A stretch of 64,000 nt of DNA. It comes from Mitsuaria sp. PDC51. Lineage in GTDB: Bacteria; Pseudomonadota; Gammaproteobacteria; Burkholderiales; Burkholderiaceae_C. The notes beneath the pieces are model-generated. The model made no database searches and was not told the DNA's origin. It saw nothing but the letters and a program-made list of their open reading frames with translations. The translations under genes were made by a program, and so were the position numbers. Every line of letters starts with the position of its first letter. Positions within the stretch are counted from its first letter, which is position 1. The stretch spans positions 1,860,001-1,924,000 of the forward strand of contig NZ_FOZE01000001.1 in the NCBI RefSeq assembly GCF_900113225.1, in the 5' to 3' direction. Below, piece after piece: positions 839 to 7,941 of this stretch.

Positions 839-868
839 AGATCCAAGTCGCCCGGCCCGGCGTACAAG
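839..868 (+). promoter_or_regulatory. Predicted ECF sigma promoter for the CFA/DUF1295 operon
   Basis: AGATCC, an 18-base spacer and TACAAG lie 28 bases before the ATG of the first CFA-type gene. The same layout (nGATCC, exactly 18 bases, TA[CT][AC]AG) occurs before the FAD oxidase operon and before the sigma gene itself. The -35 element resembles the TGATCC core I recall for the Rhodobacter RpoE-ChrR regulon. Assignment to the ECF factor encoded here is inference from this threefold match. Confidence 0.7.
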
Positions 869-896
869 CGGCAGACCAATCCCCGAAGGGCATGCC

Positions 897-1958
897 ATGG
901 CGCCTGCAATTTCCTCGATCGCCGTCCGGCTCGCCGAGCGCGGCTTGCTGCCTGAGGCCGCGGTGCGGCTGGGCATCCGGCGCCTGCTGCGCCTGCGGCT
1001 CGACGAGGCGCACCACCAGGACCCCGAGGCGGCGGCCGCGCTGACGCAGGACTTCCTGGCCGGGCTGCGCGCCGCGCCGCTGGCGGTGCTGCCGGAGCAG
1101 GCCAACGCGCAGCATTACGAGCTGCCGCCCGCGCTGTTCGAGGCCATGCTGGGACCGCGGCGCAAGTACAGCTGCTGCTGGTGGCCCGAAGGCGTCGACA
1201 CGCTGGCGGCGGCCGAGGAGGCGGCGCTGGCGGAAACCGCGGCGCGCGCCGGGCTCGCCGATGGACAGACGATCCTGGAGCTGGGCTGCGGCTGGGGCTC
1301 GCTGAGCCTGTGGATGGCGCAGCACCTGCCGGCGGCGCAGATCCTGGCGGTGTCGAACTCGGCCTCGCAGCGGGCCTTCATCGAAGCGCAGGCGCTGCGG
1401 CTGGGCCTGCGCAACCTGCAGGTGCAGACGGCCGACTTCTCGTCCTGGGGCGAGGACGGCCAGTTCGACCGGCGCTTCGACCGGATCGTGTCGGTCGAGA
1501 TGTTCGAGCACCTGCGCAACTGGCCGCGCGCCTTCCGCAAGGTGTCGAACTGGTTGCGCGACGATGGCCGCTTCTTCCTGCATGTCTTCGCGCATCGCGA
1601 GGCGCCCTATGCCTTCGAGGTCCGCGATGACACCGACTGGATGAGCCGCCACTTTTTCTCCGGCGGCATGATGCCCAGCGACGACCTGGCCTTGCTCTGC
1701 CAGGACGACCTGGCGCTGCAGCAGCGCTGGCGCTGGGACGGCCGCCATTACGCGCGCACCGCGGCGGCCTGGCTGGAACGCCTGGACGCGCACCGGGCCG
1801 AGCTGATGCCGCTCTTCGAGCGCGTCTACGGCCCTGCCGACGCCACCATGTGGTGGCAGCGCTGGCGGCTCTTCTTGCTCTCGGTCGAGGAACTGTTCGC
1901 CTACGACAAGGGGCAACAGTGGTGGGTCAGCCACTACCTCTTCGCGCCTCGGCGCTGA
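897..1958 (+). CDS. CFA-synthase-family SAM-dependent methyltransferase
   Basis: A 353-residue member of the cyclopropane-fatty-acyl-phospholipid synthase / mycolic acid methyltransferase family, expected to methylate unsaturated acyl chains of membrane lipids. The lead-in NAQHYELPPALFEAMLG (residues 70-86) is followed by YSCCWW and the SAM-binding motif ILELGCGWGSLSLWM (126-140). VEMFEH and a C-terminal WWQRWRLFLLSVEELF also fit the family. The start is set by the ATG 22 bases or so after the expected transcript start. It heads an operon with DUF1295, DUF6134 and DUF2177 genes, and has an ECF-type promoter. This makes it likely part of the oxidative or singlet-oxygen membrane response. The exact product (cyclopropane, methyl branch or furan precursor) cannot be told from sequence. 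Confidence 0.85.
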   Translation: MAPAISSIAVRLAERGLLPEAAVRLGIRRLLRLRLDEAHHQDPEAAAALTQDFLAGLRAAPLAVLPEQANAQHYELPPALFEAMLGPRRKYSCCWWPEGVDTLAAAEEAALAETAARAGLADGQTILELGCGWGSLSLWMAQHLPAAQILAVSNSASQRAFIEAQALRLGLRNLQVQTADFSSWGEDGQFDRRFDRIVSVEMFEHLRNWPRAFRKVSNWLRDDGRFFLHVFAHREAPYAFEVRDDTDWMSRHFFSGGMMPSDDLALLCQDDLALQQRWRWDGRHYARTAAAWLERLDAHRAELMPLFERVYGPADATMWWQRWRLFLLSVEELFAYDKGQQWWVSHYLFAPRR

Positions 1959-1966
1959 GGGCGGGG

Positions 1967-2782
1967 ATGGACATGGCGCCTTCCGCTGTCGAACTCGCCG
2001 TCGCGGCCGGCATCGGCCTGTCGATCGCCGTCGCCATCGCGCTGCCCACCTGGCTGGTGAGCCTCACGCGGCGCGACGCGAGCCTGGCCGACCGCGTGTG
2101 GTCGGCTTTCATCACCGCGCCGGCGGCCTGCTATGTCGTCAGCCTCGGCGGTGATGCCCGGGCGCAGGTGATGCTGGCGATCACGCTGGTCTGGGCGCTG
2201 CGGCTCGGTGTCCATGTCACCGTGCGGAACTGGGGTCATGGCGAGGACCCGCGCTACCAGGCCATCCGCGCGCGCAACCAGCCCGGCTTCGGGCTCAAGA
2301 GCCTGTGGCTGGTGTTCCTGCTGCAGGCGGTGCTCGGCTGGGTCGTGTCCTGGCCGATGCTCGCGGCCAGCGGTGGCGACCGGTCGGTGTGGTCCGCGTG
2401 GGACACGGTCGGCGCCATGCTGGCCGGGGGCGGCCTGCTCATCGAGGCGATCGCCGACGCTCAGCTCAGCCGCTTCCGCCGCGCGCCGGGGCACCGCGAC
2501 CGTGTGCTCGACAGCGGGCTGTGGCGCTATTCGCGGCATCCCAATTACTTCGGCGAAAGCTGCGTGTGGTGGGGGCTGGGGCTGATGGCCGTATCGGCGG
2601 GTGGAACCACCGCGGCCTGGTGCCTCGCATCGCCGGTGCTGATGACGGTGCTGCTGCTCAAGGTCAGCGGCGTGACGCTGCTCGAGCAGGACATCGGTGA
2701 GCGGCGTCCCGCCTATCGCGACTACATCGCCCGCACCAGCGCCTTCATCCCGTGGCCACCGAAACGGAGCGGCGCTCGATGA
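1967..2782 (+). CDS. DUF1295 membrane protein (steroid 5-alpha-reductase-like fold)
   Basis: A 271-residue polytopic membrane protein of the DUF1295 family. Several hydrophobic segments are seen (residues ~8-28, 42-60, 105-135, 145-160, 215-240). The family's hallmark is the C-terminal SGLWRYSRHPNYFGE followed by WWGLGL and the YRDYIARTSAFIPWPPK tail. This fold is shared with isoprenylcysteine methyltransferases and steroid reductases, so a reductase or methyl-transfer step on a lipid is plausible but unproven. It starts 8 bases after the CFA-type gene, and its stop codon overlaps the next start in an ATGA, so it is translationally coupled in both directions. Confidence 0.85.
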   Translation: MDMAPSAVELAVAAGIGLSIAVAIALPTWLVSLTRRDASLADRVWSAFITAPAACYVVSLGGDARAQVMLAITLVWALRLGVHVTVRNWGHGEDPRYQAIRARNQPGFGLKSLWLVFLLQAVLGWVVSWPMLAASGGDRSVWSAWDTVGAMLAGGGLLIEAIADAQLSRFRRAPGHRDRVLDSGLWRYSRHPNYFGESCVWWGLGLMAVSAGGTTAAWCLASPVLMTVLLLKVSGVTLLEQDIGERRPAYRDYIARTSAFIPWPPKRSGAR

Positions 2783-3591
2783 GGGCGGGCCGAACGCTCG
2801 TGCCGAGGCTCGGCCTGCGCGTCGCCGTCCTTGCGGCCGCCTGGATTGGCGGCGCCGCGATCGGCGCCGATGGCGCGCCCGGTGCAGACGGCGCGTCGGC
2901 GTCGGGCGCTGTCGCGACGCCCACGCCTCGAGGGGCCGACGCGCGCACGACCGCGAGCGGCGCCTGGGACTTTGAAGTCCGCCTCGACGGCAAGCCGATC
3001 GGCACCCATCGCTTCGTCGTCGAGGGCGAGCCCGGGGGCCGTACCGTGCGGAGCCTCGCCCGCTTCGACGTGAAGCTGCTCGGCCTCACGGTCTTCCGCT
3101 ACCGCCACGAGGCCAGCGAGCGCTGGCGCGGTGATTGCCTGCAGGCGATCCAGAGCCGCACCGACGATGACGGCAAGCCGGTGGAGGTCAACAAGACCTT
3201 CAATGCGCGAGGGCCGTCGACCGCATCGCCATCGTCGCAGGCTCCGTCGGCATCGACATCGGCATCGGCATCGGCCGTCGCCGAGTCGGACTGCCTGATG
3301 AGCTACGCCTACTGGCATCCGGCGCTGGTGCGGCAGCAGCGCCTGCTGAATCCGCAGACGGGCGAAATCGACGAGGTCCGCATCGAGCGCCTGCCCGATG
3401 CCTCGCTTGCGGTGGCCGGCCGCGAGGTCGAGGCGATGCGCTGGCGCCTCACCGCCACGCCGCCCGCCGCCGCCGGCAAGCCCGCGCAGCGCCAGCAGCT
3501 GACACTGTGGCGAGACCGGTCCGATGGCCGCTGGATCGGGCTCGATGCGGTGGTCAAGGGCGGGCGGGTGCTGAGCTATCGGCTGCCGTGA
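2779..3591 (+). CDS. DUF6134-like exported protein
   Basis: A 270-residue protein with a basic N-terminus and hydrophobic stretch (residues ~12-30) that looks like a signal peptide. A low-complexity Ala/Gly region follows. The body has the pattern WDFEVRLDGKPIGTHRFVVEG, then RSLARFDVKLLGLTVFRYRH and ERWRGDCLQAIQSRTDDDG, which I recognise as the DUF6134 type found in proteobacterial lipid-stress clusters. An internal Ser/Ala-rich insert lies near residues 147-168. The chosen ATG overlaps the stop of DUF1295 (ATGA); starting earlier would remove the clean signal peptide. Function is unknown. An export or envelope role in the same pathway is inferred from the operon. Confidence 0.65.
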   Translation: MRAGRTLVPRLGLRVAVLAAAWIGGAAIGADGAPGADGASASGAVATPTPRGADARTTASGAWDFEVRLDGKPIGTHRFVVEGEPGGRTVRSLARFDVKLLGLTVFRYRHEASERWRGDCLQAIQSRTDDDGKPVEVNKTFNARGPSTASPSSQAPSASTSASASAVAESDCLMSYAYWHPALVRQQRLLNPQTGEIDEVRIERLPDASLAVAGREVEAMRWRLTATPPAAAGKPAQRQQLTLWRDRSDGRWIGLDAVVKGGRVLSYRLP

Positions 3592-3612
3592 ACCAACCCC
3601 CAGGAGATCGCG

Positions 3613-4092
3613 ATGAATGCATCGACCACGACGACTCACCCGCTGCCTGCCGCCGCGCCCGCCTGGCGCTGGCCGCTGGCCTACCTCGCGACGCTGGTCG
3701 TCTTCCTGGCGATGGATGCCGTCTGGCTCGGCACCATGACCGCCGCGCTCTACCAGCCGGCCATCGGTCACCTGATGGCCGCCACCGTCGACTGGCGCGC
3801 GGTGGCGATCTTCTATCCGCTGTTCGTCGCCGGGCTGGTGCATTTCGCGGTCGCGCCCGCGCTGCGGGGCGGCCGTCCGCGGCTCGCGTTCGCGCAGGGC
3901 GCCTGCTTCGGCTTCCTGGCCTACGCGACCTACGACTTCACCAACCAGGCCACGCTGCGCGACTGGCCCTGGTTCATCACCGTCATCGACCTGGCGTGGG
4001 GCGCCGTCGTCAGCGGCGCGTCGTCCGGCGTCGCCGCGCTGGTGACAGCCGCCCTCACATCCCGACGAGCGACCCGAACCACCGGGCGATGA
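3613..4092 (+). CDS. DUF2177 family membrane protein
   Basis: A 159-residue membrane protein with four predicted helices (residues ~20-40, 62-80, 95-112, 125-148). Family-typical stretches include VVFLAMDAVWLGTM, IFYPLFVAGLVHFAV and FLAYATYDFTNQATL. The polar DxxW and YDFTN motifs sit inside or next to membrane segments. AGGAG at about 10 bases upstream gives a good ribosome site. It is the last gene of the CFA/DUF1295 operon, and its 3' end runs 38 bases into the 3' end of the convergent anti-sigma gene. DUF2177 genes often sit beside ECF sigma/ChrR pairs, which fits the context here. Biochemical role unknown. Confidence 0.85.
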   Translation: MNASTTTTHPLPAAAPAWRWPLAYLATLVVFLAMDAVWLGTMTAALYQPAIGHLMAATVDWRAVAIFYPLFVAGLVHFAVAPALRGGRPRLAFAQGACFGFLAYATYDFTNQATLRDWPWFITVIDLAWGAVVSGASSGVAALVTAALTSRRATRTTGR

Positions 4093-4744
4093 AGCCGTCG
4101 AAATGCAGCCGGCCGTCGACAGCGGCCACGCAGATGCATTCGCTGCCTTCCTGCACCACCGGCTGATGGTGGACCTCGCCGTCGGCCAGGTCGAAGTCGC
4201 CCGGGCCGAACAGCGCGCGCCCGTCGTGGAACCGGCCGTAGATGACCTGCGTCAGCTCGGTCCCGCGGTGCGTGTGCGGCGGCAGGTACTTGCCGGGCCC
4301 GATACGCAGCAGGAAGACATTGGCCTGCGGCGCGCCGGGCACGCTGACCTTGCTCCAGCGCATGCCCGGGCCGATCCAGCGCCAGCGCGTCGCGCTGCAG
4401 TCGGCCAGCGCCCGCGGCCACACCGCGCCGGTCGGCAGCGGCGGCGGCGCCGGCACCTTGCGGGGAATGGCCGCCCCGTCCGCGCCGGCCACGGCCTCGA
4501 TCGCGTCCATCGCGTCGATCCGCGCGAACGCCTGCGCCAGCGCGTCATCGCGCATCGGCGCGGCCGCTTCCTCCTCGATCAGCGCCCCGCCGACCGCCCG
4601 CAGCATCGCCACCCGCTCGCGGCAGGCGGCGCACAGCTCCAGATGGATTTCCGTCACCAGCCGGATGCCCGTGGGCAGCGTGCCCGCGGCCAGCGACAGC
4701 AACAGCTCGTCGGCGGGGTGATGGTGGATGTCGGGCGGGCGCAT
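4055..4744 (-). CDS. chrR: ChrR-family anti-sigma factor (zinc domain plus cupin)
   Basis: A 229-residue protein. The N-terminal zinc-binding anti-sigma domain has H34-xxx-C38-xx-C41, with extra histidines at 7-9. This matches the ligand set I recall for Rhodobacter ChrR. The C-terminal cupin domain (about 100-215) contains PPHTHRGTELTQVIYGRF and the late H of VHHQPV, a plausible metal site needed for sensing. The protein would hold the ECF sigma factor inactive until singlet oxygen or organic peroxide appears. It lies 99 bases downstream of the sigma gene, more than the usual overlap in such pairs, and has no strong ribosome site. Its tail overlaps the convergent DUF2177 gene. Confidence 0.88.
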   Translation of the reverse strand: MRPPDIHHHPADELLLSLAAGTLPTGIRLVTEIHLELCAACRERVAMLRAVGGALIEEEAAAPMRDDALAQAFARIDAMDAIEAVAGADGAAIPRKVPAPPPLPTGAVWPRALADCSATRWRWIGPGMRWSKVSVPGAPQANVFLLRIGPGKYLPPHTHRGTELTQVIYGRFHDGRALFGPGDFDLADGEVHHQPVVQEGSECICVAAVDGRLHFDGFIARWFGSLVGM

Positions 4745-4843
4745 GGTCGGGCGGTCAGAAGGGGAAGGGCGGTGATTGGTGATGGCTGGCGTGATGGGAA
4801 CGGTGTGGCGTGATTGATGGGGCGAGGCGATCGCGCGGGCGGC

Positions 4844-5530
4844 TCAGGGATCCAGCAGCCGGCGCAGGTGCGCCACCGCCAGCCGGATGCGCGATTTCAC
4901 CGTGCCCAGCGGCAATCCCAGTTCCGAGGCGATCCGCGCATGCGGTTCGTCCTCGTAGAAGGACAGCCGCAGCACCTGCGCCTGCTCCGGCGGCAGGCGC
5001 GACAGCGCCTCCCGGATCCGCTGGCCCTGGCGCGCGGCGTCGGCGTGGTCGGCCACGTCGGGCTGGTCGGCCTGGAGGCGGTCAAACTCGAAACACTCGT
5101 CGCCGGCGCCGTCCAGCAGGTGGCGCCGCGCGGCATCGATGCGCAGGCGGCGCCCGATGGTGAAGATCCAGGTCGACACCGCCGCCTGCGCCGGATCGAA
5201 CATCGCCGCCTTGCGCCACACCGTCACCAGCGTGTCCTGCGCCAGTTCCTCGGCGGCGGCGTCGCTGCTGCCGGTGCGCATCAGGTAGCTCTTGAGCCGC
5301 GGCGCGAAATGCGAGAACAGCCGGCCGAAGGCCTCCCGATCGTGCTGCTCGGCGACGCGACGCATCAGCGCCGCCCAGTCCGGCTCGGACGGCGGGGGCG
5401 CGGACCGGCGGTCCGGATCGAGCGGGACGATCTTCAAGTGGCGGGCTTTCGGCAAGGCGGACGGGGACGCCGCCTCGCCCGGCGGGGAGGCCGGGGCGGA
5501 GGTCGGATCGTCGCGATGCGGGGTACCCAT
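4844..5530 (-). CDS. rpoE: ECF sigma factor, RpoE/ChrR-controlled type
   Basis: A 228-residue reading with sigma region 2 at about 57-135 (FGRLFSHFAPRLKSYLMR, AEELAQDTLVTVWRKA, WIFTIGRRLRIDAAR) and region 4 at about 172-226 (LSRLPPEQAQVLRLSFYE, IASELGLPLGTVKSRIRLA). This is the ECF layout, with no region 1 or 3. The first 50 residues are Pro/Ser/Ala-rich and not needed for the fold. The ATG lies only 5 bases after a good self-type -10 element. The message is therefore either leaderless or begins at a later start; a TTG at 5437 is one candidate. It is followed by chrR, and its own promoter supports autoregulation. Confidence 0.88.
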   Translation of the reverse strand: MGTPHRDDPTSAPASPPGEAASPSALPKARHLKIVPLDPDRRSAPPPSEPDWAALMRRVAEQHDREAFGRLFSHFAPRLKSYLMRTGSSDAAAEELAQDTLVTVWRKAAMFDPAQAAVSTWIFTIGRRLRIDAARRHLLDGAGDECFEFDRLQADQPDVADHADAARQGQRIREALSRLPPEQAQVLRLSFYEDEPHARIASELGLPLGTVKSRIRLAVAHLRRLLDP

Positions 5531-5535
5531 GGACC

Positions 5536-5565
5536 CTGATACGCGACGGACGGCGGGTCGGATCA
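5536..5565 (-). promoter_or_regulatory. Predicted autoregulatory ECF promoter of the sigma gene
   Basis: Reading the minus strand: TGATCC, an 18-base spacer, then TATCAG. This is the best match of the three to the TGATCC-type -35. Transcription would begin at or within a base or two of the annotated ATG. Spacing is identical to the two operon promoters on the plus strand. Confidence 0.7.
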
Positions 5566-5646
5566 TCGCCGGGTCGGGCCTCCGACGCCATGCGGGCGAC
5601 CCTCGCCCGGCCGAGGCCGCGCCCGGAGGGTCGGTTCGCGGGCCGG

Positions 5647-5676
5647 CGATCCAAATCCGATCGGTTCGCGTACAAG
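5647..5676 (+). promoter_or_regulatory. Predicted ECF sigma promoter for the FAD oxidase/DUF1365/CFA operon
   Basis: CGATCC, 18 bases, TACAAG, followed by CG. The -10 region with its flanks (cgTACAAGCG) is identical over ten bases to the promoter before the first CFA-type gene, although the spacers differ. It sits 22 bases before the ATG of the FAD-dependent gene, back-to-back with the sigma promoter on the other strand. Confidence 0.7.
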
Positions 5677-5698: not shown

Positions 5699-7108
5699 AT
5701 GCCCGGCCCAGACCCCCTCCCGCCCGACTTCCCCAGCCCCCCGGACGGCCGTCCGCTGCGCATCGCCGTCGTCGGCGCCGGCATCTCGGGGCTGTCCTGC
5801 GCCTGGCTGCTGTCGGGGCGCCACGACGTCCAGGTCTTCGAGGCCGACGGTCGCATCGGCGGCCACAGCCACACGGTCGACGCGCCGGACCGGGGCGCGA
5901 GCGTGCCGGTGGACACCGGCTTCATCGTCTACAACGAGCCGGCCTATCCCAACCTGAGCGCGCTGTTCCACCACCTGGCGGTGCCGACGCGCGCGTCGGA
6001 CATGTCCTTCGCGGTGAGCCTGGACGGCGGCGCGCTGGAATACGCCGGCACCGACCTGAATGGCCTCTTCGCCCAGCGCGCCAACCTGCTGCGTCCGCGC
6101 TTCTGGTCGATGCTGCGCGACCTGCTGCGCTTCTACCGGGAAGCCCCGCGCGACGCCCAGGCCAGCGGCGACCTGGCGCTGGACGACTACCTCGACGCGC
6201 GCGGCTACGGCCGCGCGTTCCGCGACGACCACCTCTATCCGATGGGCGCCGCGATCTGGTCCTCGACGGCCGCCGACATCGGCCGTTATCCGGTGGCCGC
6301 CTTCGTCCGCTTCTGCGAGAACCACGGCCTGCTGCGGGTCAGCGGGCGGCCGGTGTGGCGCACCGTCGAGGGCGGCAGCCGCGAGTACGTGCGACGCCTG
6401 ACGCAGTCCTTCGCCGACCGCATCCACCGCGACGAGCCGGTCATCGCCGTCGCGCGCGAGCCGGACGGCGTGCGCCTGCGCACCCGGCGCGGCGCCTGGA
6501 CCGCGCCCTTCGACCACGTCGTGCTGGCCATGCACGCGGACCAGTCGCTGCGCATGCTGCTCGCCCCCAGCGCCGCCGAGCGGCGCCTGCTCGGGGCCAT
6601 TCCCTACACGCGCAACCTGGCCGTGCTGCACCGCGATCCGGCGCTGATGCCGCGCCGCCGGGCGGTCTGGTCGAGCTGGAACTACCTCGCCTCGCGCCAA
6701 GGTGAAAGCGGGCAGGTGGCGCCGACGGTGACCTACTGGATGAACCGGCTGCAGCCGCACCTGCCGCAGGGGCCGGATGCGCAACCGCTGTTCGTGACGC
6801 TGAATCCGGCCGTCCCGCCGCATCCCGATCACCTGCTGCGCACCGAGGTCTACGAGCACCCGCGCTTCGACGCGGCTGGCATCGCCGCGCAGCGCGAGCT
6901 CTGGTCGCTGCAGGGCCGGCAGCGCACCTGGTTCTGCGGTGCCTGGTTCGGATCGGGCTTCCACGAGGATGGCCTGCAGGCGGGCCTGGCGGTGGCCGAG
7001 GCGCTGGGCGGCGTGCGCCGGCCCTGGTCGGTGCCGGACGAATCCGGCCGCATCCACCTGCCGCGCGGCGCGGCCGGGCTGGCCGACCGGGCCGGGGTGG
7101 TGGCATGA
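5699..7108 (+). CDS. FAD/NAD(P)-binding amine-oxidase-family oxidoreductase
   Basis: A 469-residue flavoprotein. The dinucleotide-binding motif IAVVGAGISGLSCAWLL sits at residues 22-38, followed by the GG-doublet region RIGGHSHTVD. Near the C-terminus, WFCGAWFGSGFHEDGLQAGLAVAEAL closes the FAD site. It belongs to the amine oxidase / phytoene-desaturase-like group that accompanies DUF1365 and CFA genes in many proteobacteria. It may act as a desaturase or oxidase on modified acyl chains, as proposed for the Rhodobacter furan fatty acid genes; this is inference. AGGA precedes the ATG by about 8 bases. The stop overlaps the next start in an ATGA. Confidence 0.85.
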   Translation: MPGPDPLPPDFPSPPDGRPLRIAVVGAGISGLSCAWLLSGRHDVQVFEADGRIGGHSHTVDAPDRGASVPVDTGFIVYNEPAYPNLSALFHHLAVPTRASDMSFAVSLDGGALEYAGTDLNGLFAQRANLLRPRFWSMLRDLLRFYREAPRDAQASGDLALDDYLDARGYGRAFRDDHLYPMGAAIWSSTAADIGRYPVAAFVRFCENHGLLRVSGRPVWRTVEGGSREYVRRLTQSFADRIHRDEPVIAVAREPDGVRLRTRRGAWTAPFDHVVLAMHADQSLRMLLAPSAAERRLLGAIPYTRNLAVLHRDPALMPRRRAVWSSWNYLASRQGESGQVAPTVTYWMNRLQPHLPQGPDAQPLFVTLNPAVPPHPDHLLRTEVYEHPRFDAAGIAAQRELWSLQGRQRTWFCGAWFGSGFHEDGLQAGLAVAEALGGVRRPWSVPDESGRIHLPRGAAGLADRAGVVA

Positions 7109-7941
7109 GCGCACTAGACGGCGCGAGCGCCCCGGGCGCCTCCGCGCTCTACCTCGGCCGGGTGATGCACCAGCGGCTGCGACCGCTGCGTCATCGGCTG
7201 AGCTATCGGATGTTCTCGCTGCTGCTGGACCTGGACGAGTTGCCGGCGCTCGATGCGCGGCTGCGCTGGTTCTCGCTGGGGCGGTTCAACCTCTTCAGCT
7301 TCCGTCCGTCGGACCACGGCGACGGCCGCGCCGGCGACGTGGCCGGGCTGCGCGCGTGGATCGATGCGCAGCTCGCGGCGGCCGGCCTGCCCGCCGGTGG
7401 CGCAGTCCGGCTGCTGACGATGCCGCGCCTGCTCGGCTACGCCTTCAATCCGCTGAGCGTGTGGTTCTGCGACGCGCCGGACGGCACGCCGCTGGCGATC
7501 CTCTACGAGGTCAACAACACCTTCGGCCAACGGCACAGCTACCTGATCGAAGTCGATCCGGCCCAGCGCGCCGCGCCGCTGATCGAGCAACGCAGCGACA
7601 AACGGCTGTACGTGTCGCCCTTCCTCGGCATGGCGCTGCACTACCGCTTCCGCATCGAGCCGCCGCGCGAGTCGATGTCCATCGGCGTCAGCGTGCATGA
7701 GACCGACGGCGCCGCGGTGCTGCATGCCCGGCTCGACGCGCACCGCGCGCCGCTGACCGACGCCCGGTTGCTGCGATTGCTCGTCGCCTATCCGCTGCTG
7801 ACGCTGAAGGTCGTCGCCGGCATCCATTGGGAGGCGCTGCGGCTGTGGCTCAAGGGCGCGCGGCTGCATGAACGGCCCGCCGCGCCGGCCTCGCCGCTGA
7901 CCGTGGTGCGGCGGGACGACGTTCCTTCGTCCCTGCCATGA
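7105..7941 (+). CDS. DUF1365 family protein
   Basis: A 278-residue protein matching DUF1365 over its length. ALYLGRVMHQRLRPLRHRLSY opens the domain; LLTMPRLLGYAFNPLSVWFC and LYEVNNTFGQRHSYL are the family's most conserved stretches; FLGMALHYRF lies near residue 175. It always travels with the FAD oxidoreductase and CFA-type genes, so it probably acts on the same lipid substrate, but no activity is established to my knowledge. It is coupled by ATGA overlaps at both ends, which argues for balanced synthesis of all three products. Confidence 0.85.
   Translation: MSALDGASAPGASALYLGRVMHQRLRPLRHRLSYRMFSLLLDLDELPALDARLRWFSLGRFNLFSFRPSDHGDGRAGDVAGLRAWIDAQLAAAGLPAGGAVRLLTMPRLLGYAFNPLSVWFCDAPDGTPLAILYEVNNTFGQRHSYLIEVDPAQRAAPLIEQRSDKRLYVSPFLGMALHYRFRIEPPRESMSIGVSVHETDGAAVLHARLDAHRAPLTDARLLRLLVAYPLLTLKVVAGIHWEALRLWLKGARLHERPAAPASPLTVVRRDDVPSSLP

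Follow-up and report, generated by a model that had tools for sequence, protein, structure and literature searches.

A predicted RpoE-ChrR stress-response locus with linked lipid operons and distal targets in Mitsuaria sp. PDC51

Do a sigma factor gene and the two lipid-modification operons on either side of it answer to a single regulator, and if so, to which one? The question is raised by a 64-kb stretch of the Mitsuaria sp. PDC51 genome (the whole of the DNA analyzed, hereafter the window, whose numbering is used below), in which a gene for an extracytoplasmic function (ECF) sigma factor lies between two such operons. We propose, with a probability of about 0.9, that this is an RpoE-ChrR locus for the response to singlet oxygen and organic peroxide, and that the sigma factor would act on its own gene, on the lipid operons and on distal targets.

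The sigma factor, its anti-sigma factor and their promoter signature

Gene families were assigned by Pfam and NCBIfam scans of the window proteins. The sigma factor (P6) matched six PDB sequences, the top one being 2q1z_A (RpoE, E=1.4e-44), and the product of the adjacent gene (P5) matched 2z2s_B (ChrR, E=2.6e-38); we take these structures to be those of Rhodobacter sphaeroides RpoE and ChrR. P5 also scored 178.9 bits on TIGR02451, above the curated cut-off of 124.5, and contained both expected motifs as HLELCAAC (HxxxCxxC) and HTHRGTE (cupin HxHxxxE). The features that carry the argument are as follows.

839..868, plus strand: ECF11 (RpoE-ChrR type) promoter of operon 1, AGATCC-N16-CGTACAAG (motif match, conservation)
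5536..5565, minus strand: autoregulatory sigma promoter, TGATCC-N16-CGTATCAG, with an ATG 5 nt past the hexamer (motif match, conservation)
5647..5676, plus strand: ECF11 promoter of operon 2, CGATCC-N16-CGTACAAG (motif match, conservation)
4055..4744, minus strand: P5, ChrR-family zinc anti-sigma factor with HxxxCxxC and cupin HxHxxxE motifs (TIGR02451, PDB 2z2s_B)
4844..5530, minus strand: P6, ECF sigma factor of RpoE (ECF11) type, start at 5530, probably leaderless (PDB 2q1z_A)

A first-pass annotation of this DNA had described a signature, GATCC-N18-TA[CT][AC]AG, found only before the two lipid operons and the sigma gene. This was borne out: the window contained three matches, at 840-868 (plus), 5564-5536 (minus) and 5648-5676 (plus), against a mean of 0.01 in 100 dinucleotide shuffles, none of which had three. 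All three sites also fit GATCC-N16-CGTA (3 in the window versus 0.16 expected). The -10 regions of operons 1 and 2 are identical, as had been stated, over 11 bases (GCGTACAAGCG) rather than ten. Counted from the G of GATCC, the ATG follows after 57 bases in operon 1, 51 in operon 2 and 34 in the sigma gene. Nine genes stand behind the three promoters, provided that each operon is one transcript; the earlier count was at least eight. Chance occurrence of the motif was ruled out by the window shuffles together with its co-occurrence with ChrR across 80 loci (see below).

Chromatin immunoprecipitation with sequencing (ChIP-seq) of Pseudomonas syringae PSPTO_1043, an RpoE-ChrR orthologue, gave the consensus TGATCC-N16-CGTA (PMC5507510), and the RpoE2 promoters described for Shewanella have the same form (PMC4336711). 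Judged by its sequence, the window motif is this published RpoE-ChrR (ECF11) promoter. With an RpoE homologue, an adjacent ChrR and the promoter code all present, the locus is, by homology, an RpoE-ChrR (ECF11) system. Core targets of the UfaD/RSP1091, UfaO/RSP1090 and CfaS/UfaM types are also present, as judged by family and gene order only. The motif, the core targets and autoregulation have already been reported for RpoE-ChrR of Rhodobacter, Pseudomonas and Shewanella (PMC5507510, PMC4336711, PMC6852236), and a review describes a core RpoE-ChrR regulon across bacteria (PMC6852236).

Conservation of the promoters and co-occurrence with ChrR

We compared 16 genomes of the genus (our handles for genomes and loci begin with G and L, respectively), 14 of which have an orthologue of the sigma factor; G014 and G015 lack it. 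The strict motif preceded the sigma gene in 14/14 sigma-bearing genomes and P1, the first gene of operon 1, likewise in 14/14. Before the gene for the flavin adenine dinucleotide (FAD)-dependent protein that opens operon 2, GATCC was found in ten of the 14 and AATCC at the same spacing in the other four. The distance from the operon promoters to their genes varied between genomes. In a representative of another genus of the family (G018), the three sites read TGATCT, AATCC and TGATCC, and among 20 same-family genomes searched none besides G018 had a comparably close sigma factor.

A wider set was obtained by a P1-alignment scan, from which the best 80 of at least 578 confirmed relatives were kept as loci; named relatives in this set place the genus within the Roseateles/Pelomonas group. 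The motif was located within 200 bases before P1 in 16/16 loci with ChrR, compared to 2/64 loci without a local ChrR (Fisher p about 6e-15, related loci being counted as independent). ChrR was then checked in 18 chosen genomes, four with the motif and 14 without. Three of the four motif-bearing genomes had ChrR above the cut-off, two of them previously known and one (L223) new; the L223 locus has the motif and no local ChrR, and its genome carries two full ChrR genes elsewhere. None of the 14 motif-less genomes had ChrR above the cut-off. Because of these ChrR counts, the lipid genes are seen to be widespread without the sigma factor, and the motif comes with the sigma factor. The proposed autoregulation and the proposed sharing of one sigma signature by both lipid operons, first put forward in the earlier annotation, are thus backed by conservation in 14/14 genomes and by co-occurrence with ChrR.

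Likely targets beyond the window

The same annotation had read the three sites as a complete, local regulon. A genome-wide scan with its pattern gave six matches, and the three local sites were all recovered; of the other three, one was inside a called gene, one overlapped a called gene start and one had no called start downstream. A distal pair was missed, since the narrow -10 of that pattern does not cover TATATC and TAAGAC. With GATCC-N16-CGTA we found 15 matches in this genome, ten of them inside called genes and five intergenic just before gene starts, namely the three local sites and two distal ones. Gene calls came from a script based on codon usage, for which these loci were the training set and whose output was compared by eye with the window genes. 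The distal sites, C6:2005238 and C6:2006995, lie outside the window, at a distance of about 140 kb from the sigma gene. One stands 78 bases before a fasciclin-domain gene, the other 98 bases before a photolyase-related gene (PF04244). The region G000:C6:2003200-2009000 (L127) holds both genes with one motif each, and they are likely distal members of the regulon.

An orthologue of the fasciclin gene with >80% identity occurred in 6/16 genus genomes, and the motif preceded it in 6/6. The photolyase-related gene was present in 11/16: in three the motif stood directly before it (G000, G010, G004), in three it lay behind a motif-bearing lipocalin gene (G001, G003, G012), and in five no motif was found (G008 and the 63–65% homologues of G006, G009, G014 and G015). 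Close lipocalin orthologues were found in five genus genomes, four of them with the motif; none was found in the genome of the window. A regulon limited to the window is ruled out by the distal motif promoters and their conservation, and the earlier annotation was mistaken in calling the regulon complete and local.

The genus genomes contained 55 further TGATCC-N16-CGTA sites, 30 of them outside called genes; the corresponding figure in the sigma-less G014 and G015 was 3/5. In the P. syringae ChIP-seq data, 54 of 87 motif-bearing peaks were inside coding regions (PMC5507510), and therefore the presence of the motif is not enough to define a target. Beyond the fasciclin, photolyase-related and second-sigma sites (the last described below), none of the further genus sites is counted as a target. 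Ten genes behind such sites were scanned with Pfam; the sites before PrkA, metallo-lactamase and permease genes appeared to be paired in G003 and G008 only. TGATCC-N16-CGTA precedes a PrkA-type kinase gene in G003 (L173), and a similar site precedes a long gene in G008 (L195); this kinase site is a possible lineage-specific target.

The lipid operons and furan fatty acids

The genes of the two operons are listed below.

897..1958, plus strand: P1, S-adenosylmethionine-dependent methyltransferase of the CMAS superfamily, candidate FufM-type methylase (Pfam, PDB match)
1967..2782, plus strand: P2, DUF1295 membrane protein, weakly similar to steroid 5-alpha-reductase (E=4e-4; Pfam)
2779..3591, plus strand: P3, DUF6134 protein (Pfam)
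3613..4092, plus strand: P4, DUF2177 membrane protein (Pfam)
5699..7108, plus strand: P7, FAD-dependent amine-oxidase-like protein, UfaD-type (Pfam family, gene order)
7105..7941, plus strand: P8, DUF1365 protein, UfaO-type (Pfam)
7938..9278, plus strand: P9, cyclopropane fatty acid (CFA) synthase-like methyltransferase, UfaM/CfaS-type (family, gene order)

The genes of operon 2 run FAD, DUF1365, CFA-type, as they do in Rhodopseudomonas palustris RPA2571-2570-2569; the R. palustris genes are described as ufaD-ufaO-ufaM, with DUF1365 contained in UfaO (PMC7380195). By family and gene order, operon 2 is a predicted furan fatty acid operon of the ufaD-ufaO-ufaM type.

The first gene of operon 1 had been labeled a CFA-type gene, which is doubtful: the best solved relative of P1 was coclaurine N-methyltransferase (6gkv, E=2e-67, residues 11–349 of 353), far ahead of CFA synthase structures (E=3e-26). 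The plant protein LIME1 presumably belongs to the coclaurine N-methyltransferase-like family. It shares 38% identity with FufM, hence its name AtFUFM1 (PMC10940516), and FufM puts the second methyl group on furan acids (PMC7380195). P1 may accordingly be a FufM-like furan fatty acid methylase. It was found together with all three ufa-type genes in 47/80 loci (34/48 among loci of at least 18 kb). A count by distance to the DUF1295 gene (15/80) was set aside as unreliable, since partial alignments displace the starts. In four loci (L222, L231, L236 and L255) P1 and the ufa-type genes are consecutive on one strand and no separate motif was found before the FAD gene, an arrangement that fits one pathway.

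Alternatively, operon 1 may stand outside furan lipid synthesis, with P1 and the DUF1295 protein making another co-regulated lipid, either N-methylated or reduced. The nearest solved relatives of P1 are indeed N-methyltransferases, and the Pfam entries DUF1295, DUF6134 and DUF2177 come without an assigned chemistry. The link between FufM and LIME1 and the frequent company of the ufa-type genes speak for the furan role, so that we regard this alternative as a serious one that is nevertheless the less probable of the two.

A probably leaderless sigma message

The ATG that opens the sigma frame follows the -10 hexamer of the sigma promoter after five bases in 12 and four bases in two of the 14 genus genomes. 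The frames opened in this way all encode proteins beginning with M-G, and 9/14 begin with MGxxRRD. G018 has the ATG at five bases and a second in-frame ATG six bases earlier. Outside the genus, 10/12 loci had an ATG at that place, the exceptions (L241 and L289) being Gammaproteobacteria. Since the ten include L230, a member of the Moraxellaceae, the layout may not be confined to betaproteobacteria. Because of this ATG position within and outside the genus, the sigma mRNA is probably leaderless, with transcription predicted to start at the start codon at 5530. Folding of the initial 101 bases of the mRNA was hardly more favorable than that of shuffled sequences (z -1.16). Among the matches listed in a literature search, none concerned a leaderless ChrR-linked sigma factor.

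The true start might instead lie further downstream, behind a leader of the usual kind, some 100 bases long, and the ATG after the -10 would then be coincidental. The R. sphaeroides RpoE structure aligns with P6 only from residue 49, the N-terminal extension differs in length between species, L241 and L289 do not have the ATG and L294 is ambiguous. Against this stand the constant place of the ATG and the shared N-terminus in all 14 genus genomes, as well as the same ATG position in most outside loci, and we consider a downstream start unlikely.

Similar layouts were observed at other genes. A second ECF sigma gene in G005, G007 and G009 (L104, L177 and L183) has a TGATCC-N16-CGTA promoter with an ATG five bases past the hexamer. 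At position 479 of L295, from the Ramlibacter genome that also contains L222, the motif is followed by an ATG four bases past the hexamer and a 197-residue open reading frame (ORF), possibly a DUF6134-type gene with another leaderless-type layout.

Proposed mechanism and its weighing

In the mechanism we propose, ChrR (P5) would hold the sigma factor P6, and singlet oxygen or organic peroxide would trigger turnover of ChrR, a step shown in R. sphaeroides and carried over to Mitsuaria here. The freed sigma factor would use TGATCC-N16-CGTA promoters and raise expression of its own gene, of the ufaD-ufaO-ufaM-type furan fatty acid operon, of the second lipid operon (FufM-like methylase, DUF1295, DUF6134 and DUF2177) and of the distal genes for the photolyase-related and fasciclin proteins. 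Turnover of ChrR in response to singlet oxygen is reported to require furan fatty acid genes of the core regulon (PMC6852236); because R. sphaeroides has this need for furan fatty acids, the sigma factor and the lipid operons may form a positive loop in Mitsuaria as well.

Several observations weigh against an RpoE-ChrR response of this extent. The transcription starts and the inducer in Mitsuaria sp. PDC51 are deduced from sequence, the lipid products are predicted from gene content and the operon boundaries are drawn from gene spacing. The genomes are related, so that the shuffle and Fisher values overstate independence, and four of the 16 ChrR loci (L213–L216) apparently overlap genus genomes already compared. 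L217, from a fragmentary assembly, carries the motif with only weak ChrR matches in its genome; five of the 14 motif-less genomes had weak ChrR matches below the cut-off; and no motif was found near L302, the second ChrR locus in the genome of L223. TGATCC-N16-CGTA also occurred three times in the sigma-less G014 (control 1) and twice in G015 (control 1), where both matches sit 17 and 38 bases 5' of called starts, and for this reason a lone match before a gene proves little.

It is very improbable that the motif serves a different ECF sigma factor encoded in the genome and that the local one is nearby by accident: three or more other ECF sigma genes are present (30–31% identity) and a promoter of this type precedes the second sigma gene of G005, G007 and G009, but the motif tracks ChrR across both loci and genomes and matches the RpoE-ChrR consensus as published for Pseudomonas and Shewanella.

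Comparison with known systems

The RpoE-ChrR (ECF11) system of R. sphaeroides resembles the Mitsuaria locus in its sigma factor and ChrR homologues, promoter code, ufa-type genes beside rpoE-chrR and lipid targets. Unlike in R. sphaeroides, the ufaM-type gene here lies within the operon of the ufaD- and ufaO-type genes, and a FufM-like/DUF1295 operon is added. P. syringae PSPTO_1043/1042 is described with the same consensus and with FAD, RSP1090-type and cfa genes among its targets, and a ChIP-seq peak before its own sigma gene suggests autoregulation; in contrast to Mitsuaria, its gene set follows phrB and is separate from the sigma gene (PMC5507510). RpoE2-ChrR of Shewanella oneidensis shares the code, is autoregulated and has a deoxyribodipyrimidine photolyase-related target, SO_4169, like the distal target here, whereas its regulon adds pgpD-hemH2 and a Lon-domain gene; in that regulon as described, no P1-type operon was seen (PMC4336711). 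For the UfaM/UfaD/UfaO/FufM pathway, gene families and operon order agree with those of R. palustris RPA2571-2569 (PMC7380195). The R. palustris fufM gene (RPA0924), as reported, is elsewhere in its genome, whereas the candidate FufM gene of Mitsuaria shares both locus and promoter code with the ufa-type genes.

The Mitsuaria locus would extend the singlet-oxygen sigma response, described in alpha- and gammaproteobacteria in the papers cited, to a betaproteobacterial genus, with conservation footprints for each promoter. It also offers a place to test the feedback of furan lipids on ChrR, the roles of the DUF1295 and FufM-like proteins, and the possible favoring of a leaderless sigma message under stress.

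A palindrome upstream of the sigma promoter

The following element was observed in the region between the sigma gene and operon 2.

5594..5608, no strand: palindrome GGGCGA-CCC-TCGCCC, with its center 35.5 bp before the sigma -35 and 71 bases before the sigma ATG, on the upstream side of both

In this register, 9/14 genus genomes had palindromes with arms of 5–8 bp (one shifted by 1 bp), two had imperfect ones and three had none. In single-base shuffles, 0/500 reached the observed mean pairing, related genomes being counted as independent. Its distance from the sigma promoter is fixed, while that to the FAD promoter varies between genomes. The pattern occurred at 61 places in the 16 genus genomes versus 43 for a reversed control (10 versus 4 in G005 and 10 versus 3 in G009), which does not support a common genome-wide element. 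A hairpin in the sigma mRNA is unlikely, as the palindrome is upstream of both predicted transcription starts. The palindrome may be where a second regulator acts on the sigma promoter.

A broader picture is tentative, and we would put it below even odds. In it, the message of the ECF11 sigma gene of Burkholderiales is fixed as leaderless, its autoregulated promoter setting the transcription start at the start codon, and in this genus the palindrome is bound by a second regulator. One promoter code would also serve an entire dimethyl furan fatty acid pathway at a single locus (UfaM, UfaD and UfaO types and a FufM-like enzyme with DUF1295), so that the sigma factor would control the lipids that release it.

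Neighboring genes and minor observations

A small ORF on the minus strand (377–754) is divergent from operon 1, with which it has its upstream region in common; it had no match in the NCBIfam scan. Extra motifs were observed at position 923 of L293 and position 877 of L294, before short ORFs resembling the DUF2177-type gene, which suggests that this gene has its own promoter in some genera. One further gene follows operon 2.

9345..9941, plus strand: GAF-domain protein 3' of operon 2, possibly its last gene, adjoining operon 2 in 5/15 compared loci

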